A stretch of 64,000 nucleotides of DNA from Roseibaca calidilacus (GTDB lineage Bacteria > Pseudomonadota > Alphaproteobacteria > Rhodobacterales > Rhodobacteraceae): assembly GCF_001517585.1 (NCBI RefSeq), contig NZ_FBYC01000004.1, positions 1,755,501 through 1,819,500 on the forward strand. Reading direction: 5' to 3'. Position 1 is the stretch's first letter, and each line of letters begins with the position of its first letter. Shown piece after piece: positions 1,320 to 8,042 of this stretch. The notes beneath the pieces were generated by a model, which saw only the letters and a list, made by a program, of their open reading frames with translations, ran no database searches and had not been told where the DNA came from. Both the position numbers and the translations under genes were made by a program.

Positions 1320-3086
1320 ATGGATCAGTTTTTAATCAACCTTCTCTTCGTGGGCGCGTCTTTCGCGCTCTATATCGGGATCGCGATCTGGGCACGCGCC
1401 GGGTCGACCGCAGACTTCTACGCGGCATCGCGCGGGGTCAACCCGATCGTCAACGGGGCGGCCACGGCGGCGGACTGGATGTCGGCGGCCTCTTTCATCT
1501 CGATGGCGGGTCTGATCGCCTTCGTGGGTTACGGCAACTCGACCTTCCTGATGGGTTGGACCGGCGGCTATGTGCTGCTGGCCATGCTGCTGGCACCCTA
1601 TCTGCGCAAATTCGGCCGTTTCACGGTGCCCGATTTCATCGGTGACCGCTTCTACAGCCAGACCGCACGTCTGGTGGCCGTCATCGCGTTGCTGATCATG
1701 TCGATCACCTATGTGATCGGCCAGATGACCGGCGCAGGTGTGGCATTCTCGCGCTTTTTGGAAGTGTCGAATACGACCGGCCTGTTCATCGCGTCCGGTG
1801 TTGTCTTCATCTACGCTGTTCTGGGCGGGATGAAGGGCATCACCTATACGCAGCTGGCCCAATATGTGGTTCTGATTATCGCCTACACCATCCCGGCGGT
1901 CTTCATTTCGCTGCAACTGACCGGCAACCCGCTGCCGCAGCTTGGCCTGTTTTCCACCCATACCGGGTCTGGCCAGCCGCTGCTGACCACGCTGAACGAA
2001 GTTCTGGTTGAACTGGGCTTCAACGACTACACCGGCAACCATGGATCGACCTTCAACATGGTGCTGTTCACCCTGTCGCTGATGATCGGCACCGCGGGCC
2101 TGCCGCACGTCATCATCCGCTTCTTTACCGTGCCGAAAGTGTCGGATGCGCGTAAATCGGCAGGTTGGGCGCTGATCTTCATTGCGCTGCTCTACACCGT
2201 TGCACCTGCTGTCGGTGCCATGGCGCGCCTGAACATCATCACCACGATCTTCCCGAACGGCGCTCAGGAAACCCCGCTGGCCTATGAGGACAAGCCCGAC
2301 TGGATGACCAATTGGGAAGCAACCGGCCTGCTGGCGTTCGAAGACAAGAATGGCGACGGGTTCATCCAGTATTACAACGAAGCAAATCCCCCTGCTTTCG
2401 CGGATGAACTGGGCTGGGGCGGCAACGAGATGGTGACCTTCAACCAAGATATCCTTGTGTTGGCGAACCCGGAAATTGCACAGCTTCCGGGCTGGGTTAT
2501 CGGCCTGATCGCGGCAGGTGGTCTGGCAGCGGCATTGTCCACGGCGGCAGGTCTGCTTCTGGCCATCTCGTCTGCGGTCAGCCACGACTTGATCAAATCG
2601 ATGATCAATCCCGGCATCTCGGAAAAGGGCGAGTTGATGGCCGCGCGGATTTCGATGGCCTTTGCCATTGCCTTGGCGACCTATCTGGGCCTGAACCCGC
2701 CGGGCTTTGCGGCGCAGGTTGTGGCACTGGCCTTCGGTCTGGCGGCAAGCTCGCTGTTCCCGGCAATCATGATGGGCATCTTCAGCAAGAAGATGAACGC
2801 TGCCGGGGCGATCACGGGTATGATCGTGGGCCTTGGGGCAACCGTGCTGTACATCTTCACCTATCTGGGCTGGTTCTTCATCCCCGGCACCAACATGCTG
2901 GCGAATACCCCGGATAACTGGCTGTTTGGCATCTCGCCGCTCAGCTTCGGTGCGGTGGGCGCAGCCCTGAACTTCGCGTCGGCCTATATCGTCAACAAGC
3001 TGACGGGCGATGCACCTGCGGAAATTCAGGAACTGGTGGAATCGATCCGCGTGCCGAAAGGCGCTGGCGCGGCTGTCGATCACTGA
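1320..3086 (+). CDS. Sodium:solute (acetate-type) symporter
   Basis: A 588-residue SSS-family transporter of the VC_2705/ActP-like branch with about 13 hydrophobic helices. The segment GMKGITYTQLAQY and the N-terminal SRGVNPIVNGAATAADWMS region are typical. It follows the DUF4212 gene by 14 bases. A large soluble loop between helices contains DKNGDG from residue 342 (D342, N344, D346, F348, Q350), resembling an EF-hand calcium loop. Context (acsA, adk upstream) favours acetate or a related short carboxylate as substrate; the substrate is inferred. A 13-bp hairpin lies just after the stop. Confidence 0.88.
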   Translation: MDQFLINLLFVGASFALYIGIAIWARAGSTADFYAASRGVNPIVNGAATAADWMSAASFISMAGLIAFVGYGNSTFLMGWTGGYVLLAMLLAPYLRKFGRFTVPDFIGDRFYSQTARLVAVIALLIMSITYVIGQMTGAGVAFSRFLEVSNTTGLFIASGVVFIYAVLGGMKGITYTQLAQYVVLIIAYTIPAVFISLQLTGNPLPQLGLFSTHTGSGQPLLTTLNEVLVELGFNDYTGNHGSTFNMVLFTLSLMIGTAGLPHVIIRFFTVPKVSDARKSAGWALIFIALLYTVAPAVGAMARLNIITTIFPNGAQETPLAYEDKPDWMTNWEATGLLAFEDKNGDGFIQYYNEANPPAFADELGWGGNEMVTFNQDILVLANPEIAQLPGWVIGLIAAGGLAAALSTAAGLLLAISSAVSHDLIKSMINPGISEKGELMAARISMAFAIALATYLGLNPPGFAAQVVALAFGLAASSLFPAIMMGIFSKKMNAAGAITGMIVGLGATVLYIFTYLGWFFIPGTNMLANTPDNWLFGISPLSFGAVGAALNFASAYIVNKLTGDAPAEIQELVESIRVPKGAGAAVDH

Positions 3087-3155: not shown

Positions 3156-4985
3156 ATGCCCGATCTCAGCCCCAAGGTTCTGGACTTCCTGCAATCGGTG
3201 CACCCGTATGACACGTTGCCGCTTGACGAATTGACGCGCGTTGCCAATTCCTTCAGCCGCATCGAATACCCTGCCGGAACGGTCATCTATACCGAAGGCG
3301 AGCCAATCGGCGGCGTCTGGCTGGTGAAATCCGGCACGGTCGAGGTGACCGATACCCATGGTGCTTTGGTCTCTATCCTGAACCCGCGCAATTCCTTTGG
3401 CGAGCGTGGCTTGCTGCGCGACGGGCGCGCGGCGACAACCGCCACCACCACCGCCGACACGGTCCTGCTGCAACTGCCCGGTGGCGAATTGCGCCACCTG
3501 ATCGCCAATTTCCCGGCCTTCGAGCGGTTTTTCAGCCGGGGCCAAGGCCAAAACAAGCTGGGCCGCCAGAACGACCTTGCCACGTTGAAAGTGTCGGACC
3601 TGATGGTGCGCAACCCGCGCAGCGCCACGCCCGACATGACCGCGCAAGACGCCGCCAAGCTGCTGCGCGAGCACCGCATTTCTTGCCTGCCGGTGGTCGA
3701 GGGCGAGAGGCTGGTCGGCATTGTCACCACGCGCGATTTGTCGGGCAAAGTGCTGGCCGAGGGGCGCGCCCCGGATACGCCGCTGTCCGCGTTCATGACC
3801 CGCGATCCCCTGTCGCTGGACCCGAGCGCGCTGGGGTCCGACATTCTGCATATGATGCTGGAACACCGCATTGGCCATGTCCCGATCACGCGCGGCCCCA
3901 AGCTGGTCGGCATGATTACCCAGACCGACCTGACCCGTTTTCAGGCCGTCAGCTCCGCGCAACTGGTGCGCGACGCGGCAAATGCCACCGATTACGCCGG
4001 GCTGGCCGATGTGACCGCCCGCATTCCGCAACTGCTGATGCAGCTTGTCGGTGCGCATAACGCGCATGATGTCATCACCCGCCTGATTACCGACATTGCC
4101 GACACCGTCACGCGCCGCCTGCTGCGCATGGCAGAGGATGAATTCGGCCCCGCCCCCGTGCCCTATCTGTGGGCCGCTTGCGGCAGCCAAGGGCGGCAAG
4201 AGCAAACCGGCGTCAGCGACCAAGACAATTGCCTGATTATCGACGATAGCGCCACACCCGATGACATGGCCTATTTCACCAAGCTGGCGCGCTATGTCAG
4301 CGACGGGCTGGACGCGGCGGGCTATTTCTATTGCCCCGGCGACATGATGGCCACGAACCCGCGCTGGTGCCAGCCCCTGTCGGTCTGGCGGCGCTATTTC
4401 CAAGGCTGGATCAACACGCCTTCGCCCGAAGCGCAGATGTTGGCCTCGGTCATGTTCGACCTGCGCCCCATTGGCGGGCAGGTCAGCCTGTTCCGCGATT
4501 TGCAGGCGGAAACGCTGGAAGCGGCCTCGAAGAATTCGATTTTTGTCGCCCATATGGTGTCGAATTCCATCAAGCACGCGCCGCCCCTTGGGCTGCTGCG
4601 CGGCTTTGCCACCATCCGCTCGGGCGAACACAAGAACCATGTCGATATGAAACTGGGCGGCGTGGTGCCGATCACCGACCTTGCGCGCGTCTACGCCTTG
4701 CGCGGGCGCATCCCGGCGGCGAATACCCGCGCGCGGCTGCTGGCGGCGGAAGAGGCCGGGATCATCTCTGTCTCTGGCGCGCGCGACCTGATCGAAGCTT
4801 ACGACCTGATCGCCGATCTGCGGCTGGAAAACCAAGCGACATTGGTGCGGATGGGCCGCAAGCCGGACAATTTCCTCGCGCCATCGGACCTGTCCGATTT
4901 CGAGCGTAGCCACCTGCGCGACGCCTTTGTCGTCGTGCGCACGATGCAATCTGCCGTGGGGCAGCTTGCAGGCACTTTGGGCTGA
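3156..4985 (+). CDS. cNMP-binding / CBS / DUF294 nucleotidyltransferase-like protein
   Basis: A 609-residue cytoplasmic protein. In order: a cyclic-nucleotide-binding-like domain (about 15-130), a CBS pair (about 145-265, with VSDLMVRNPR at its start), and a DUF294 putative nucleotidyltransferase. In the last, G343-S-x-G-R347-x-E349 ... S354-D355-x-D357 gives the nucleotidyltransferase-fold signature. A helical DUF294 C-terminal domain follows. Such proteins are repeatedly found next to VC_2705-type symporters (family knowledge) and resemble GlnD-type sensors. Ligand and target are unknown. The gene lies 69 bases after the symporter and 13 bases before the next gene, so it probably belongs to the same operon. 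Confidence 0.85.
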   Translation: MPDLSPKVLDFLQSVHPYDTLPLDELTRVANSFSRIEYPAGTVIYTEGEPIGGVWLVKSGTVEVTDTHGALVSILNPRNSFGERGLLRDGRAATTATTTADTVLLQLPGGELRHLIANFPAFERFFSRGQGQNKLGRQNDLATLKVSDLMVRNPRSATPDMTAQDAAKLLREHRISCLPVVEGERLVGIVTTRDLSGKVLAEGRAPDTPLSAFMTRDPLSLDPSALGSDILHMMLEHRIGHVPITRGPKLVGMITQTDLTRFQAVSSAQLVRDAANATDYAGLADVTARIPQLLMQLVGAHNAHDVITRLITDIADTVTRRLLRMAEDEFGPAPVPYLWAACGSQGRQEQTGVSDQDNCLIIDDSATPDDMAYFTKLARYVSDGLDAAGYFYCPGDMMATNPRWCQPLSVWRRYFQGWINTPSPEAQMLASVMFDLRPIGGQVSLFRDLQAETLEAASKNSIFVAHMVSNSIKHAPPLGLLRGFATIRSGEHKNHVDMKLGGVVPITDLARVYALRGRIPAANTRARLLAAEEAGIISVSGARDLIEAYDLIADLRLENQATLVRMGRKPDNFLAPSDLSDFERSHLRDAFVVVRTMQSAVGQLAGTLG

Positions 4986-4998
4986 AAGGGCGCAAGAC

Positions 4999-5550
4999 AT
5001 GTTTCTGGAATTCTTCGCAGTGATCGTGGCAGGGGTGGCGGGGTTCGGCACCGCACTGATTGCCCACCGCCTGACCCTGCGCCGCCTGCCCGACTGGACC
5101 GCGCCATTTGGCGCAGCCATCGCCATGGTGTTGATGGTCATCTACCTGGAATATAGCTGGGCCGGACGGTTCGAAGCCGGGTTGCCCGAAGATGTGACCG
5201 TCGTCAGCCGCAACGAGCATCGCGTCTGGTATCGGCCATGGACCTTCGTGGTGCCTTTGACAACGCGCATCATCGCGGTCGATAACCGCATTCGCCAGCC
5301 GCATTCCGTCAATCCCGACATGGTGCTGACAGGGGTGATTTTGAAAGAACGCTGGGCGCTGACCTTCGGGTTTAAGTCCATTTTCGACTGTGCGGCAGGG
5401 CGCCGCGCAGATCTGTCCGAAGGCACGGTGCTGGATGAAGAGGGCATCCCGCAAAATGTCGACTGGTTCACCATGGACCCTGACGACCCGTTCTTGACGA
5501 CCGCATGTGGAGGAGAGATGCACAATGGAGGATCAAGCGCGCAAGGCTGA
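4999..5550 (+). CDS. Hypothetical protein with two N-terminal membrane helices
   Basis: 183 residues from the ATG at 4999. An earlier in-frame start at 4927 would sit inside the DUF294 gene and is less likely. Two hydrophobic stretches (about residues 3-22 and 36-52) are followed by a soluble domain of about 130 residues with no motif I recognise. The 3' end overlaps the following response-regulator gene by 26 bases, showing tight translational coupling. Its place in a symporter/signalling operon suggests a membrane partner of the downstream sensor-like protein; this is inference. Confidence 0.7.
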   Translation: MFLEFFAVIVAGVAGFGTALIAHRLTLRRLPDWTAPFGAAIAMVLMVIYLEYSWAGRFEAGLPEDVTVVSRNEHRVWYRPWTFVVPLTTRIIAVDNRIRQPHSVNPDMVLTGVILKERWALTFGFKSIFDCAAGRRADLSEGTVLDEEGIPQNVDWFTMDPDDPFLTTACGGEMHNGGSSAQG

Positions 5551-5953
5551 GATTCTGGTCATCGAGGACGAGGACAATATCGCCATCGCCCTTGACTACC
5601 TGCTGACCCGCGAGGGCTATGCGCAAACCCGCCTTGCCACCGGCGCGGGCGCGGTAGAGGTAATCTGCAAGCGCAGGCCGGACTTGGTGTTGCTTGATGT
5701 CATGCTGCCAGAGGTCTCTGGCTATGAAATATGCCAGAGCGTGCGCGCGCGCCCGGATTGCGACGACATCCGCATTCTGATGATGACCGCGCGCGGCTCT
5801 GCCGTGGAGCGGCGCAAAGGGTTGGCGATGGGCGCGGATGGATTCATCTCGAAACCCTTCGAGTTGAAGGTCTTGCGCGACGAGTTGCGGCGTATGCTGG
5901 CGACTGATCGGGTTGACATGACAACCGGCGCAGAAGGCGCGCAAGATGCTTGA
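5525..5953 (+). CDS. Stand-alone response regulator receiver
   Basis: 142 residues, a single CheY-like receiver with no output domain. The acidic pair E14/D15, phospho-acceptor D58 (LVLLDVMLP), T88 (MMTAR) and K110 (SKPFE) are all present. The ATG at 5525 is chosen because GGAGGAGAG lies 8 bases upstream; a GTG at 5507 is possible. It overlaps the upstream gene by 26 bases and the downstream gene by 8 bases. The fused kinase-like protein that follows lacks the phospho-donor His, so the kinase for D58 must be elsewhere or the receiver must act without it. Confidence 0.88.
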   Translation: MEDQARKAEILVIEDEDNIAIALDYLLTREGYAQTRLATGAGAVEVICKRRPDLVLLDVMLPEVSGYEICQSVRARPDCDDIRILMMTARGSAVERRKGLAMGADGFISKPFELKVLRDELRRMLATDRVDMTTGAEGAQDA

Positions 5954-8042
5954 CCGCCTGTCGCTGCGGCTGCGCATCTTGCTGTTTTTCGCGCTGATCG
6001 CGGGGGGTGGGGTTGCGGCCATCATTGCCGGAGGCTGGCTGACCCTGTCGCGCAGCCCGGAACCGGGGCTTGAAGGGCCGTTGCTGCAAGCCGGTATGAT
6101 CGCGGGCTTTCTGATCCTGTTTATCGTGACGGGCATCTGGTATCTGTTCGACGCCAATGTGGCCCGCGCCATTGACGGGCTGTCAAACGCAATCCGCAGC
6201 CGCGCCCATGCCGATATCGGCGGCAGCCTGAAGCAAGAGGCCGCGCAGGCGCGGTATCTGGGCGATCTTGCCCCCGCCGCCGAAGCCATCGCCGCCTCGC
6301 TTACGCAGACCCGCTCGGCGCTGGCGGAATCCGTCGCGCGCGAAACCGCCCGGCTGTCCGCCGAAAAGTCGCGGCTGGAAAAGCTGCTGGCGGATGTGCC
6401 GGTGGCGGTGCTGCTGTGCAATGCCGATTTCCAGCTTGCGTTCTATAACGGACAGGCTGTGACCATTCTGGAAGCAGGCGGTGCCCCCGGTCTGGACCGC
6501 AACCTGCTGGATTACCTGCGCGACGGGCCGGTGCGCCATGCCTACGACCGCCTGCGCAAGCTGGACGATCCCGATGCCGTGTCGGACCTGATGTGCGCGA
6601 CGATCGCCAGCGGGCGGCTGCTTTCGGGCCGGATGCGCGTGTTGCGCCGGACCGACAACACCCGCCGCCCCGGTTTCGTGCTGACCTTGCGCGATGTGAC
6701 GGCGGACCTTGCCGCCCATGCCGCGCGCGAAGCGCTTTTACAAGAAGTGTTCGACCGCGTGCGCCGCCCGGCGGCAAACCTGCAAACCGTGATCGGGGTT
6801 CTGGCCGAAAGCCCAGACATGGCGCATGAAACCGACCTGACGACCGCCATGCAAGCCGAGGTGCGCGCATTGACCAATGCGATCACGGAACTGGGCGCGC
6901 GCCATGATGCCACGCGTGGCGAATGGCTGCCCCAGACCCGCACCCGCTCGCGCGATTTGCTGGACGGGATCGAAGCGCAATTCAGCGCTGACGGGCTGTT
7001 CTTGACCACCGAGGGTCCGGAACTTGTGCTGACCTGCGACGGGTTTGAACTGGCCATGTTCTTTCGTTGGCTGGGCGGCAAACTGGCCGCAACCAAGCGC
7101 GCCAAGACCTTTCGCCTTGTGCTAAGCGAAGAAGACGGGCCCGGCGCGATCCTTGATCTGATATGGCAAGGCCCGCCCCTGCCGGTGGGCGAATTCGACG
7201 GCTGGCTGACCGACAGCATCAACCCCGACCTGCCCGAAGTGACGGCGCGGGCGGTGCTGTCAGCGCATATGACAGACGCTTGGACAGAAACGCGCCGCAA
7301 CGGCCATGCCTGCGTGCGCCTTCCGATCCCGCAGGCCCGCCGCGCCACAACCCGCCCCGCACCGATTGAACGCGACGTGGTGTATGATTTCGACCTTTTG
7401 TCGAAAGAGCGCAATGCGGGCGTGCTGGAAAGCCGCTTGGAAGACCTGACCTATGTGGTGTTCGACACGGAAACCACGGGGCTGACACCCTCGAGCGATG
7501 AGATTGTCCAGATTGCCGCCGTGCGCGTGGTCAATGGCCGCCGTGTCCGGCGCGAGGTATTCGACACGCTGGTCGATCCGGGTCGGCCCATCCCGCAAAG
7601 CTCGACCGATGTGCATGGCATCACCGCGGATATGGTCAAGGGCGCGCCGACGATTGTCGATGCGGGCAAGCGGTTCCACGATTTTGCCCGTGGCGCGGTG
7701 CTGATTGCCCATAACGCGCCTTTTGACATGGAATTCCTGCGGCGGCACGAAAAGGATATCGGCGCGCAATTTGACAACCCGGTGCTGGACACCGTGCTGT
7801 TGTCGGCCGTGGTCTATGGCCAGCTAGAACAACATTCGTTGGATGCGCTTACCGCGCGGCTGGGCATAACCATCCCTGAAGAAGCGCGCCACACCGCAAT
7901 TGGCGACACCGTGGCCACGGCGGATGCGTTTTTGAAACTGCTGCCAATGTTGCAGGCCAAGGGGTTGGAAACCTTTGGCGATGTGTTGGCCGAAGTGCGG
8001 CGGCACGGGCGGCTGTTGAAGGATCTTAACACGCAGATGTAG
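5946..8042 (+). CDS. Membrane PAS / pseudo-histidine-kinase fused to DnaQ-type exonuclease
   Basis: 698 residues. Two membrane helices (about 10-32 and 47-65) are followed by a linker/coiled region, a PAS-like domain (about 145-245) and a DHp-like helix pair. In the latter D270-R-V-R-R-P275 occupies the place of the H-E-x-R-x-P box, so the phospho-acceptor His is Asp. A CA-like region without clear N and G boxes follows. The C-terminal third is a complete DEDDh 3'-5' exonuclease: D507/E509 (FDTETTG), H589-N-A-P-F-D594, H649 ... D654. DnaQ-like exonuclease genes are known near these symporter operons; here one is physically joined to a degenerate sensor kinase. Substrate and role are unknown. 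Confidence 0.82.
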   Translation: MLDRLSLRLRILLFFALIAGGGVAAIIAGGWLTLSRSPEPGLEGPLLQAGMIAGFLILFIVTGIWYLFDANVARAIDGLSNAIRSRAHADIGGSLKQEAAQARYLGDLAPAAEAIAASLTQTRSALAESVARETARLSAEKSRLEKLLADVPVAVLLCNADFQLAFYNGQAVTILEAGGAPGLDRNLLDYLRDGPVRHAYDRLRKLDDPDAVSDLMCATIASGRLLSGRMRVLRRTDNTRRPGFVLTLRDVTADLAAHAAREALLQEVFDRVRRPAANLQTVIGVLAESPDMAHETDLTTAMQAEVRALTNAITELGARHDATRGEWLPQTRTRSRDLLDGIEAQFSADGLFLTTEGPELVLTCDGFELAMFFRWLGGKLAATKRAKTFRLVLSEEDGPGAILDLIWQGPPLPVGEFDGWLTDSINPDLPEVTARAVLSAHMTDAWTETRRNGHACVRLPIPQARRATTRPAPIERDVVYDFDLLSKERNAGVLESRLEDLTYVVFDTETTGLTPSSDEIVQIAAVRVVNGRRVRREVFDTLVDPGRPIPQSSTDVHGITADMVKGAPTIVDAGKRFHDFARGAVLIAHNAPFDMEFLRRHEKDIGAQFDNPVLDTVLLSAVVYGQLEQHSLDALTARLGITIPEEARHTAIGDTVATADAFLKLLPMLQAKGLETFGDVLAEVRRHGRLLKDLNTQM

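Follow-up and report, generated by a model that had tools for sequence, protein, structure and literature searches.

Here, we propose that the 698-aa protein encoded at 5946-8042 (forward strand) of the window, the 64,000-nucleotide stretch of Roseibaca calidilacus DNA analysed here, is a membrane-anchored exonuclease governed by a pseudo-histidine kinase of the DivL type. In our best reading, to which we give a probability of about 0.7, a CrbS-like kinase would phosphorylate a lone receiver, the receiver would act on the pseudokinase core and the core on the exonuclease, a DivL/DivK-like reversed relay operating in acetate/pyruvate metabolism. The combination of a dead sensor kinase, an intact-looking exonuclease and a phospho-switch protein suggests a nuclease switched by two-component signalling.

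Domain composition

The assignments below combine the ORF translation with Pfam and other comparisons, and all features lie on the forward strand. Two hydropathy segments, at about residues 9-31 (5970-6038) and 46-70 (6081-6155), agree with the two membrane helices described in an earlier note on this DNA. The PAS-like domain that it also named (residues 150-253, 6393-6704) is seen as a PAS_4 match which is below its cut-off in the window protein (E 0.004) and recurs in 23/40 homologues. Next come a DHp-like region (about residues 258-330, 6717-6935), a CA (HATPase)-like region (about residues 331-466, 6936-7343) and a DEDDh (DnaQ/RNase T) exonuclease domain (residues 504-662, 7455-7931; Pfam RNase_T E 2.2e-37), whose nearest PDB sequence is the PolC-type 2p1j (E 3.5e-28). 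The exonuclease residues already recognised in the earlier note, D507, E509, D594, H649 and D654, are all in place, and they are retained in 182, 183, 184, 185 and 185 of 186 homologues, respectively, so that the motifs hold in alignment. With its D-x-E, D and H-x4-D residues and its family match, the domain is a predicted DEDDh (DnaQ-like) exonuclease.

At E<=0.01, Pfam models match the 40 homologues as follows: RNase_T in 40, PAS_4 in 23, PAS in 20, HisKA in 4 (best E 4e-4) and HATPase in none. Among the best 25 of 35 NCBIfam matches, no equivalog model for the fusion exceeds its cut-off, and the sole model that does is the domain-level dnaq TIGR00573.

A conserved pseudokinase core

The search against HisKA and HATPase families that the earlier note had called for found no Pfam hit to either in the window protein, even with E values of up to 1 admitted; profile comparison nevertheless identifies the core as homologous to real histidine kinases (Prob 98.7, E 2.6e-16) over 209 columns, the whole of the kinase core, with D270 (6753-6755) aligned under the phospho-histidine. 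As a control, the core profile compared with receivers gave Prob 0.3. The best PDB matches of the core include DivL (4q20, E 2.9e-7), whose Y550 and R553 align with residues 270 and 273.

The box D270-R-V-R-R-P275 reads as the earlier note had it, and its proposal that Asp replaces the phospho-histidine extends to relatives: across the 186 non-redundant homologues, column 270 holds 0 His and 102 Asp or Glu among 123 letters. Nor has the histidine moved, as no conserved His column was found near the DHp helix of the 119 proteins that carry the core (the commonest, 258, 266, 289 and 267, hold His in 33, 22, 17 and 15). The earlier note saw no clear N or G box. The N-box Asn (column 379) is present in only 4/119 core-class proteins and the G1-box Asp is replaced by W407 (7164-7166) in 118/119, so both are absent as a rule, but one G1-box glycine, G409, is retained in 113/119. 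Lacking the phospho-histidine and the N and G1/G2 box residues of an active histidine kinase, while keeping the homology, the core is a predicted pseudo-histidine kinase of the DivL type. The loss of kinase residues spans the whole family, which the earlier note had not seen.

Might the core then be a relic in decay, useful only for dimerisation, with an exonuclease that is constitutive or controlled through the PAS domain or the membrane, and a receiver that serves something else? The core is absent from 50/177 family members and eroded in 8/177, while the membrane, PAS and exonuclease parts persist, as decay would have it. On the other hand, R273 (6762-6764), W407, H441 and W446 are kept in 110, 118, 116 and 113 of the 119 core-class proteins, respectively, and conservation of this order over large divergence points to constraint rather than decay.

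Receiver and core are lost together

Immediately upstream, at 5525-5953, lies the gene of a 142-aa lone receiver (Pfam Response_reg E 1.9e-25), which, as had been noted, overlaps the pseudokinase/exonuclease gene; the overlap is 8 nt. Its residues include the acidic pair E14/D15, the phospho-acceptor D58, T88 and K110, making it a predicted phosphorylatable receiver, and over 112 aligned rows D58 is kept in 111, K110 in 112, Thr or Ser in 110 and the second acid as Asp in 107.

The counts of receiver and core come from a homologue set of 212 proteins, from which dnaQ (L002) and seven exonucleases of other architecture (L133-L139) had been dropped beforehand; removing 26 with identical C-terminal 350 aa left 186. 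Nine of these (fragments, frame-broken or mis-extended) were set aside because too little of the PAS region could be read, and the remaining 177 comprise 119 core-class, 8 eroded-core and 50 coreless proteins, an example of the coreless short form being that of Ruegeria sediminis (L198). A receiver lies just upstream in 111/119 of the core-class proteins, in 0/8 of the eroded-core and in 0/50 of the coreless ones, that is, in 0/58 proteins without the core or its DHp part, and every locus without a receiver shows at least 1.4 kb of upstream DNA. Fisher p for this association ignores kinship. The tree shows 7 changes in core state and only 5 independent pairs on supported branches, and the receiver shifts with the core in 4.8-4.9 of the 5 pairs and never in the opposite direction (sign test p 0.0625). 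The receiver and the DHp-like region have thus been lost together on separate branches.

Exceptions exist. Eight of the 119 core-class proteins have no receiver just upstream; one of these has a receiver just downstream, leaving seven with none beside them in the DNA seen. In one of the 111, the receiver is part of a longer multi-receiver protein rather than lone, and two genomes (G111, G131) keep the receiver orthologue without the exonuclease. The seven and the two are what a relic would allow; the empty upstream position in all 58 proteins that lost the DHp-like region is not. Conservation within the core and a receiver that is still intact together disfavour the relic, and we consider it unlikely. 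The earlier note had left two options, a membrane sensor controlling a nuclease and a nuclease directed by a pseudokinase. Because the receiver is adjacent only where the core is present and goes when the core goes, the second is favoured, with the receiver as partner. These patterns suggest that the core is a receiver-reading, DivL-like module which regulates the membrane-anchored exonuclease.

An acetate operon

The gene order is acs-adk-DUF4212-symporter-cNMP/CBS/DUF294-HYP-receiver-pseudokinase/exonuclease, all on the forward strand. The 3' end of acs (acetate--CoA ligase) occupies 1-270, its start preceding the window (L251, 3202-5271; NCBIfam TIGR02188, 1024.8 bits against a cut-off of 725). 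After a gap of 4 nt comes adk (275-889; Pfam ADK E 2.2e-55), the adenylate kinase product of which would recycle the AMP made by Acs. The DUF4212 symporter small subunit (1051-1305; Pfam E 1.1e-31, TIGR03647 105 bits) and a VC_2705-family sodium/solute symporter (1320-3086; NCBIfam TIGR03648, 816 bits) precede a protein with a cNMP-binding domain, two CBS domains, a DUF294 nucleotidyltransferase containing the motif GSQGRQEQTGVSDQDN, and DUF294_C (3156-4985). The small protein HYP (4999-5550), in which no Pfam or NCBIfam family scores above cut-off, has by inspection a hydrophobic N-terminal half and is conserved in the cluster. By gene content the cluster is an acetate operon that includes acs; the same operon occurs in Paracoccus denitrificans PD1222, where PDEN_RS22690 is the receiver and PDEN_RS22695 the exonuclease, and also in Rhodobacter capsulatus DSM 1710, where the neighbouring genes match. 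Neither the acetate operon nor the SLC5-type kinase discussed below had been seen in the earlier note.

This metabolic setting bears on whether the protein could be an anti-phage or DNA-repair nuclease. PADLOC models do match (E 3.5e-40 and weaker), but only within residues 497-668, the DEDDh part; no PADLOC defence model matches the whole protein. On both grounds we reject a defence role as highly implausible.

What, then, would phosphorylate the receiver? An SLC5-type (CrbS-like) histidine kinase is its likely upstream partner. In 23/33 loci outside the window's family, the named Rhodobacterales and the Hyphomicrobiales, such a kinase is encoded no more than 1.5 kb away and in the same orientation. 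In the window's genome the orthologue lies elsewhere (L243, 3985-6738), adjoining another lone receiver. Presence per genome is no clean discriminator because the kinase is nearly universal in the family (133/149 genomes, whether or not they hold the pair): all 28 same-family genomes with core and receiver have it, but so do 105/121 others. It is also possible, though we think it less than probable, that acetyl phosphate or a different kinase phosphorylates the receiver instead, the remaining scheme holding. The ackA and pta families are present in the window's genome, and the SLC5-type kinase is adjacent in none of the 31 loci of Rhodobacterales or the window's family (0/27) and Hyphomicrobiales (0/4). 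Its adjacency in the 23/33 other loci argues the other way, as does its absence from the one same-family genome that has a core but lacks the receiver (G130), and from one of those with an eroded core (G083).

Proposed mechanism

In the relay that we favour, the SLC5-type kinase would sense the supply of short-chain carboxylates and phosphorylate the receiver at D58, and the receiver would bind the DHp-like helices near R273. This docking would set off a movement that, together with input from the PAS domain or the membrane, may switch the DEDDh activity on or off. By trimming RNA, or a target that bears a nucleotide, the exonuclease would, along with DUF294, adjust the uptake and activation of acetate and pyruvate. 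One point against this relay is that the acidic residue at the former phospho-site might confer a preference for the unphosphorylated receiver.

In an alternative, exonuclease and DUF294 would be an eraser and a writer: a protein, perhaps the symporter or Acs, would receive a nucleotide from DUF294 and be cleared of it by the DEDDh domain. Counting against this, DEDDh enzymes of known function work at the ends of nucleic acids. In its favour are five proteins that join exonuclease and CBS-DUF294 in one ORF (L134, L135, L137, L138 and L139, by phmmer; Pfam, run on four, confirmed 4/4) and two loci where they are neighbours (L133, L136), like PP_0353 and PP_0354 in Pseudomonas putida (PMC9927547). 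The exonuclease also lies near CBS-DUF294 in 39/39 loci of Rhodobacterales or the window's family where the flanking DNA reaches 3.5 kb or more in both directions. Against it, no CBS-DUF294 was found within 8 kb in 12/33 core-class loci outside these groups and Hyphomicrobiales. We think it improbable. A broader scheme, doubtful but perhaps worth stating, is a two-component pathway that ends in nuclease action rather than transcription. The SLC5-type kinase, lone receiver and reversed core would gate the membrane exonuclease, and this enzyme and DUF294, opposing or assisting each other, would erase and write a nucleotide mark or an RNA tail carried by the acetate-uptake machinery.

Comparison with known systems

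We found no description of the fusion in the open-access literature, as judged from titles and the beginnings of abstracts among the matches listed. By sequence, this is a widespread family with DivL-like logic and an enzyme attached as output, and its natural core deletions already indicate which part the receiver requires. The family also gives a way into the role of PP_0353, a so far unexplained, stand-alone RNase_T-type exonuclease of the MxtR/ErdR (CrbS/R) regulon whose deletion slows growth on pyruvate (PMC9927547). PP_0353 likewise sits beside a CBS protein and is linked to ActP and CrbS/R-type control; control there is transcriptional, however, and no part of PP_0353 is described in that paper as membrane, PAS, pseudokinase or receiver. 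The CrbS/CrbR system itself, an SLC5/STAC kinase with a LuxR-type regulator of acetate genes, shares the likely upstream kinase and the setting of acs and symporter, but here the signal would pass by way of a lone receiver to a nuclease and not to transcription. With the PolC/DnaQ/YprB-type DEDDh exonucleases the window protein shares all catalytic residues, whereas it is predicted to be membrane-tethered and carries a sensory and pseudokinase module in the same chain, with no polymerase or helicase.

A close parallel in logic is DivL/DivK of Caulobacter, where a PAS-bearing protein with a dead kinase core and a replaced phospho-histidine has a lone receiver as partner (PMC4211667). R273 takes the place of DivL R553, which is needed for DivK~P binding, much of which is lost in R553A, and the DivL authors called for study of how widespread such reversed signalling is (PMC4211667). 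The two differ in that the histidine has given way to Asp or Glu here and to Tyr in DivL, in the more degenerate CA part of the window protein, in its acetate operon as opposed to the cell cycle, and in the exonuclease fused to it as output.

Kinase-like core and family spread

The open reading frame at 5946-8042 (forward strand) encodes 698 residues, with the Asp270 box and the DEDDh residues at the positions given in the earlier note. Its C-terminal part matches RNase_T (Pfam, residues 504-662, E 2.2e-37) and, at the sequence level, is an exonuclease with all its catalytic residues. The PAS_4 match is weak. Pfam finds neither HisKA nor HATPase in the protein, yet a profile of 40 homologous cores (DHp plus CA region) matches whole cores of real histidine kinases (HKs) over 209 columns (Prob 98.7, E 2.6e-16). 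The HK profile comprised 14 cores, seven from HKs with a symporter-like N-terminus (SLC5-type) and seven from other HKs of the window's genome; as a control, the core profile reached only Prob 0.3 against a receiver alignment. In our reading of the core alignment, the phospho-His is matched by D270, the two N-box Asn by W375 and K379, and the G1 Asp by W407. HKs are also the best matches of the core among PDB sequences, DivL included (4q20, E 2.9e-7), with residues 270-273 under DivL Y550-E-L-R553.

The replacement of the phospho-His extends to the whole family. Across 186 non-redundant homologues (from 212), column 270 holds Glu in 62, Asp in 40, Ala in 8, Arg in 3, Gly, Met and Pro in 2 each, Gln, Thr, Ile and Ser in one each, a gap in 63, and His in none; the loss of the phospho-His is therefore old and family-wide, with an acidic residue preferred. 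The 119 proteins with a full core conserve R273 in 110 cases, W407 in 118, H441 in 116 and W446 in 113. As for the N and G boxes, the N-box Asn and the G1 Asp are replaced as a rule, with one G1-box Gly of the ATP site, G409, persisting in 113/119. As its sequences indicate, this is a kinase core without catalytic residues yet under constraint.

Searches with the protein give matches at E<=1e-30 in 73 of the 149 genomes from the window's family and at E<=1e-25 in 52 of 299 from its phylum, the window's genome counted in both and other exonucleases being included among the weaker matches. At least 80 loci kept from a scan of named genomes span Alpha-, Beta-, Gamma- and Deltaproteobacteria, Magnetococcales and Nitrospirota. 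The pseudokinase/exonuclease is real and widespread.

Joint loss of core and receiver

The lone receiver gene (5525-5953, forward strand) lies directly upstream, as first noticed, overlapping the pseudokinase/exonuclease gene by 8 nt and, by 26 nt, a small protein gene (4999-5550, forward strand). The receiver is intact by sequence, as had been proposed: D58 is present in 111, K110 in 112 and Thr/Ser88 in 110 of 112 rows (the window's own receiver counted twice). At most 23 residues lie beyond the matched domain in 110 of 111 receiver proteins (median 5), the exception, L129, having 237.

Classing of 177 proteins with a PAS region gave 119 with a full core, 8 with an eroded one, whose DHp-like part is shortened or missing, and 50 coreless, of about 470 residues, in which TM-PAS is joined straight to the exonuclease. 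Directly upstream, on the same strand and no more than 1.5 kb away, a receiver accompanies 111/119, 0/8 and 0/50 respectively, L129 among the 111 having it inside a longer multi-receiver protein; in every locus without one, the DNA ahead of the gene extends for at least 1.4 kb. With the core columns left out of the tree, core state requires seven changes and provides five independent pairs on supported branches. The receiver changes the same way as the core in 4.8 (FastTree on all 177 rows) or 4.9 (IQ-TREE quick on 74 of those rows) of the five and the opposite way in none, p being 0.0625, with 0.05 out of reach for five pairs. R273 also tracks the receiver in the 127 full- or eroded-core proteins (both in 105, neither in 10, one only in 6 and 6). 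At the level of gene content, core and receiver have been lost together.

Where a genome has the short form, its best match to the receiver at E<=1e-22, if any, is a more distant receiver, such as that adjoining the SLC5-type HK in G035, G039 and G076; the receiver gene thus seems lost, not relocated. Several cases tell against this link: no receiver lies upstream of the core-bearing proteins L077, L112, L153, L193, L195 (which has 2.6 kb of DNA ahead of it), L196 and L199, L163 has its receiver downstream, and genomes G111 and G131 have a receiver gene near adk and no exonuclease match. The receiver may thus have a second partner. Lone-receiver orthologues that sit close to adk where the genome gives no exonuclease match (L244 5961-6437; L245 6524-7015) are possibly a sign of that partner or a relic.

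A candidate upstream kinase

In many other lineages an HK (ORFs of 740-1114 residues, mostly 900-1000) adjoins the receiver/pseudokinase pair, with HisKA, HATPase and a symporter-like N-terminus (SSF above the Pfam cut-off in 2/8 scanned, weak in a third). Of the 33 sufficiently flanked core-class loci outside the window's family, named Rhodobacterales and Hyphomicrobiales (order not known for 8 of the 33), 23 have it on the same strand no more than 1.5 kb away; the figures are 0/27 for Rhodobacterales/window-family loci and 0/4 for Hyphomicrobiales. By this architecture we call it CrbS-like. The window's genome has an orthologue (E 3e-149 to 1e-161 with the N-terminal 640 residues of five such HKs) beside a lone receiver and an ScfR-type regulator, in a second signalling locus (L243 3985-8997, reverse strand). 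Among the HisKA-bearing ORFs fetched from this genome, it is closest to the pseudokinase profile (E 1.3e-11, next 1.3e-9), which fits, and does not prove, descent of the core from an SLC5-type HK.

Acetate operon and DUF294

The window cluster is, by gene content, an acetate operon: acs (forward strand, 3' end at 270; TIGR02188, 1024.8 bits), adk, DUF4212, a VC_2705-family symporter (TIGR03648, 816 bits), a cNMP-CBS-DUF294 protein with a nucleotidyltransferase motif, the small protein, the receiver and the pseudokinase/exonuclease. The small protein, hydrophobic in its N-terminal half and below cut-off for every Pfam and NCBIfam family, keeps its cluster position in Rhodobacterales and some others, and is possibly another component of the system. 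The order acs-DUF4212-symporter-DUF294-hypothetical-response regulator-'3'-5' exonuclease' recurs in Paracoccus denitrificans PD1222 plasmid 1 (PDEN_RS22665-22695) and in Marivivens JLT3646; the PD1222 cluster, acs included, is carried whole on the 654-kb plasmid (L246). Relatives at E<=1e-30, some perhaps other exonucleases, occur in 35 plasmid records, 20 of them Paracoccus.

All 39 Rhodobacterales/window-family loci that extend 3.5 kb or more to each side (27 core, 12 coreless) have CBS-DUF294 and a symporter no more than 8 kb away. Elsewhere the DEDDh domain and CBS-DUF294 share one ORF (L134 1537-3648; L135 1503-3638; L137 3049-5283; L138 2848-5196; L139 3296-5764; Pfam on all but L138) or adjoin (L133, L136). 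DUF4212 and the symporter are near the fusion in L135, L137 and L139, and one genome, G360, has both a pseudokinase/exonuclease (L073) and a fusion (L139).

Proposed mechanism and known systems

How might these parts work together? The SLC5-type HK would phosphorylate the receiver, which would dock onto the DHp-like helices of the core and so alter the nuclease, whose target may be RNA or a nucleotide mark tied to DUF294. An acidic residue 270 facing the phospho-site could equally favour the unphosphorylated receiver, and control may have either sign. The finding is directly testable.

A possible counterpart of the exonuclease is PP_0353, of RNase_T type, which shares an operon with the CBS protein PP_0354 and is a target of MxtR/ErdR (CrbS/R); without it, growth is slower on pyruvate, though not on succinate or 20 mM acetate, its role is called unclear by the authors, and the P. 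aeruginosa homologues adjoin actP (PMC9927547). PA3232-PA3235 are upregulated on propionate (PMC9765439), PA3234 expression depends on MxtR/ErdR (PMC5436829), Pflu5625, annotated as cAMP-binding, CBS and nucleotidyltransferase, is discussed in a CrbS/R study (PMC5715377), and a second SLC5/STAC system is described (PMC9100948). Among the papers listed by searches of open-access full text, no title or abstract opening describes the pseudokinase/exonuclease family.

The precedent for a pseudokinase reading a phosphorylated receiver is DivL, where R553A is one of four changes weakening DivK~P binding 8-15-fold (PMC4211667). R553 aligns with R273, and Y550 with D270. From sequence and this analogy, we propose that the family represents DivL-like reversed signalling that differs from DivL in carrying a fused nuclease as its output.
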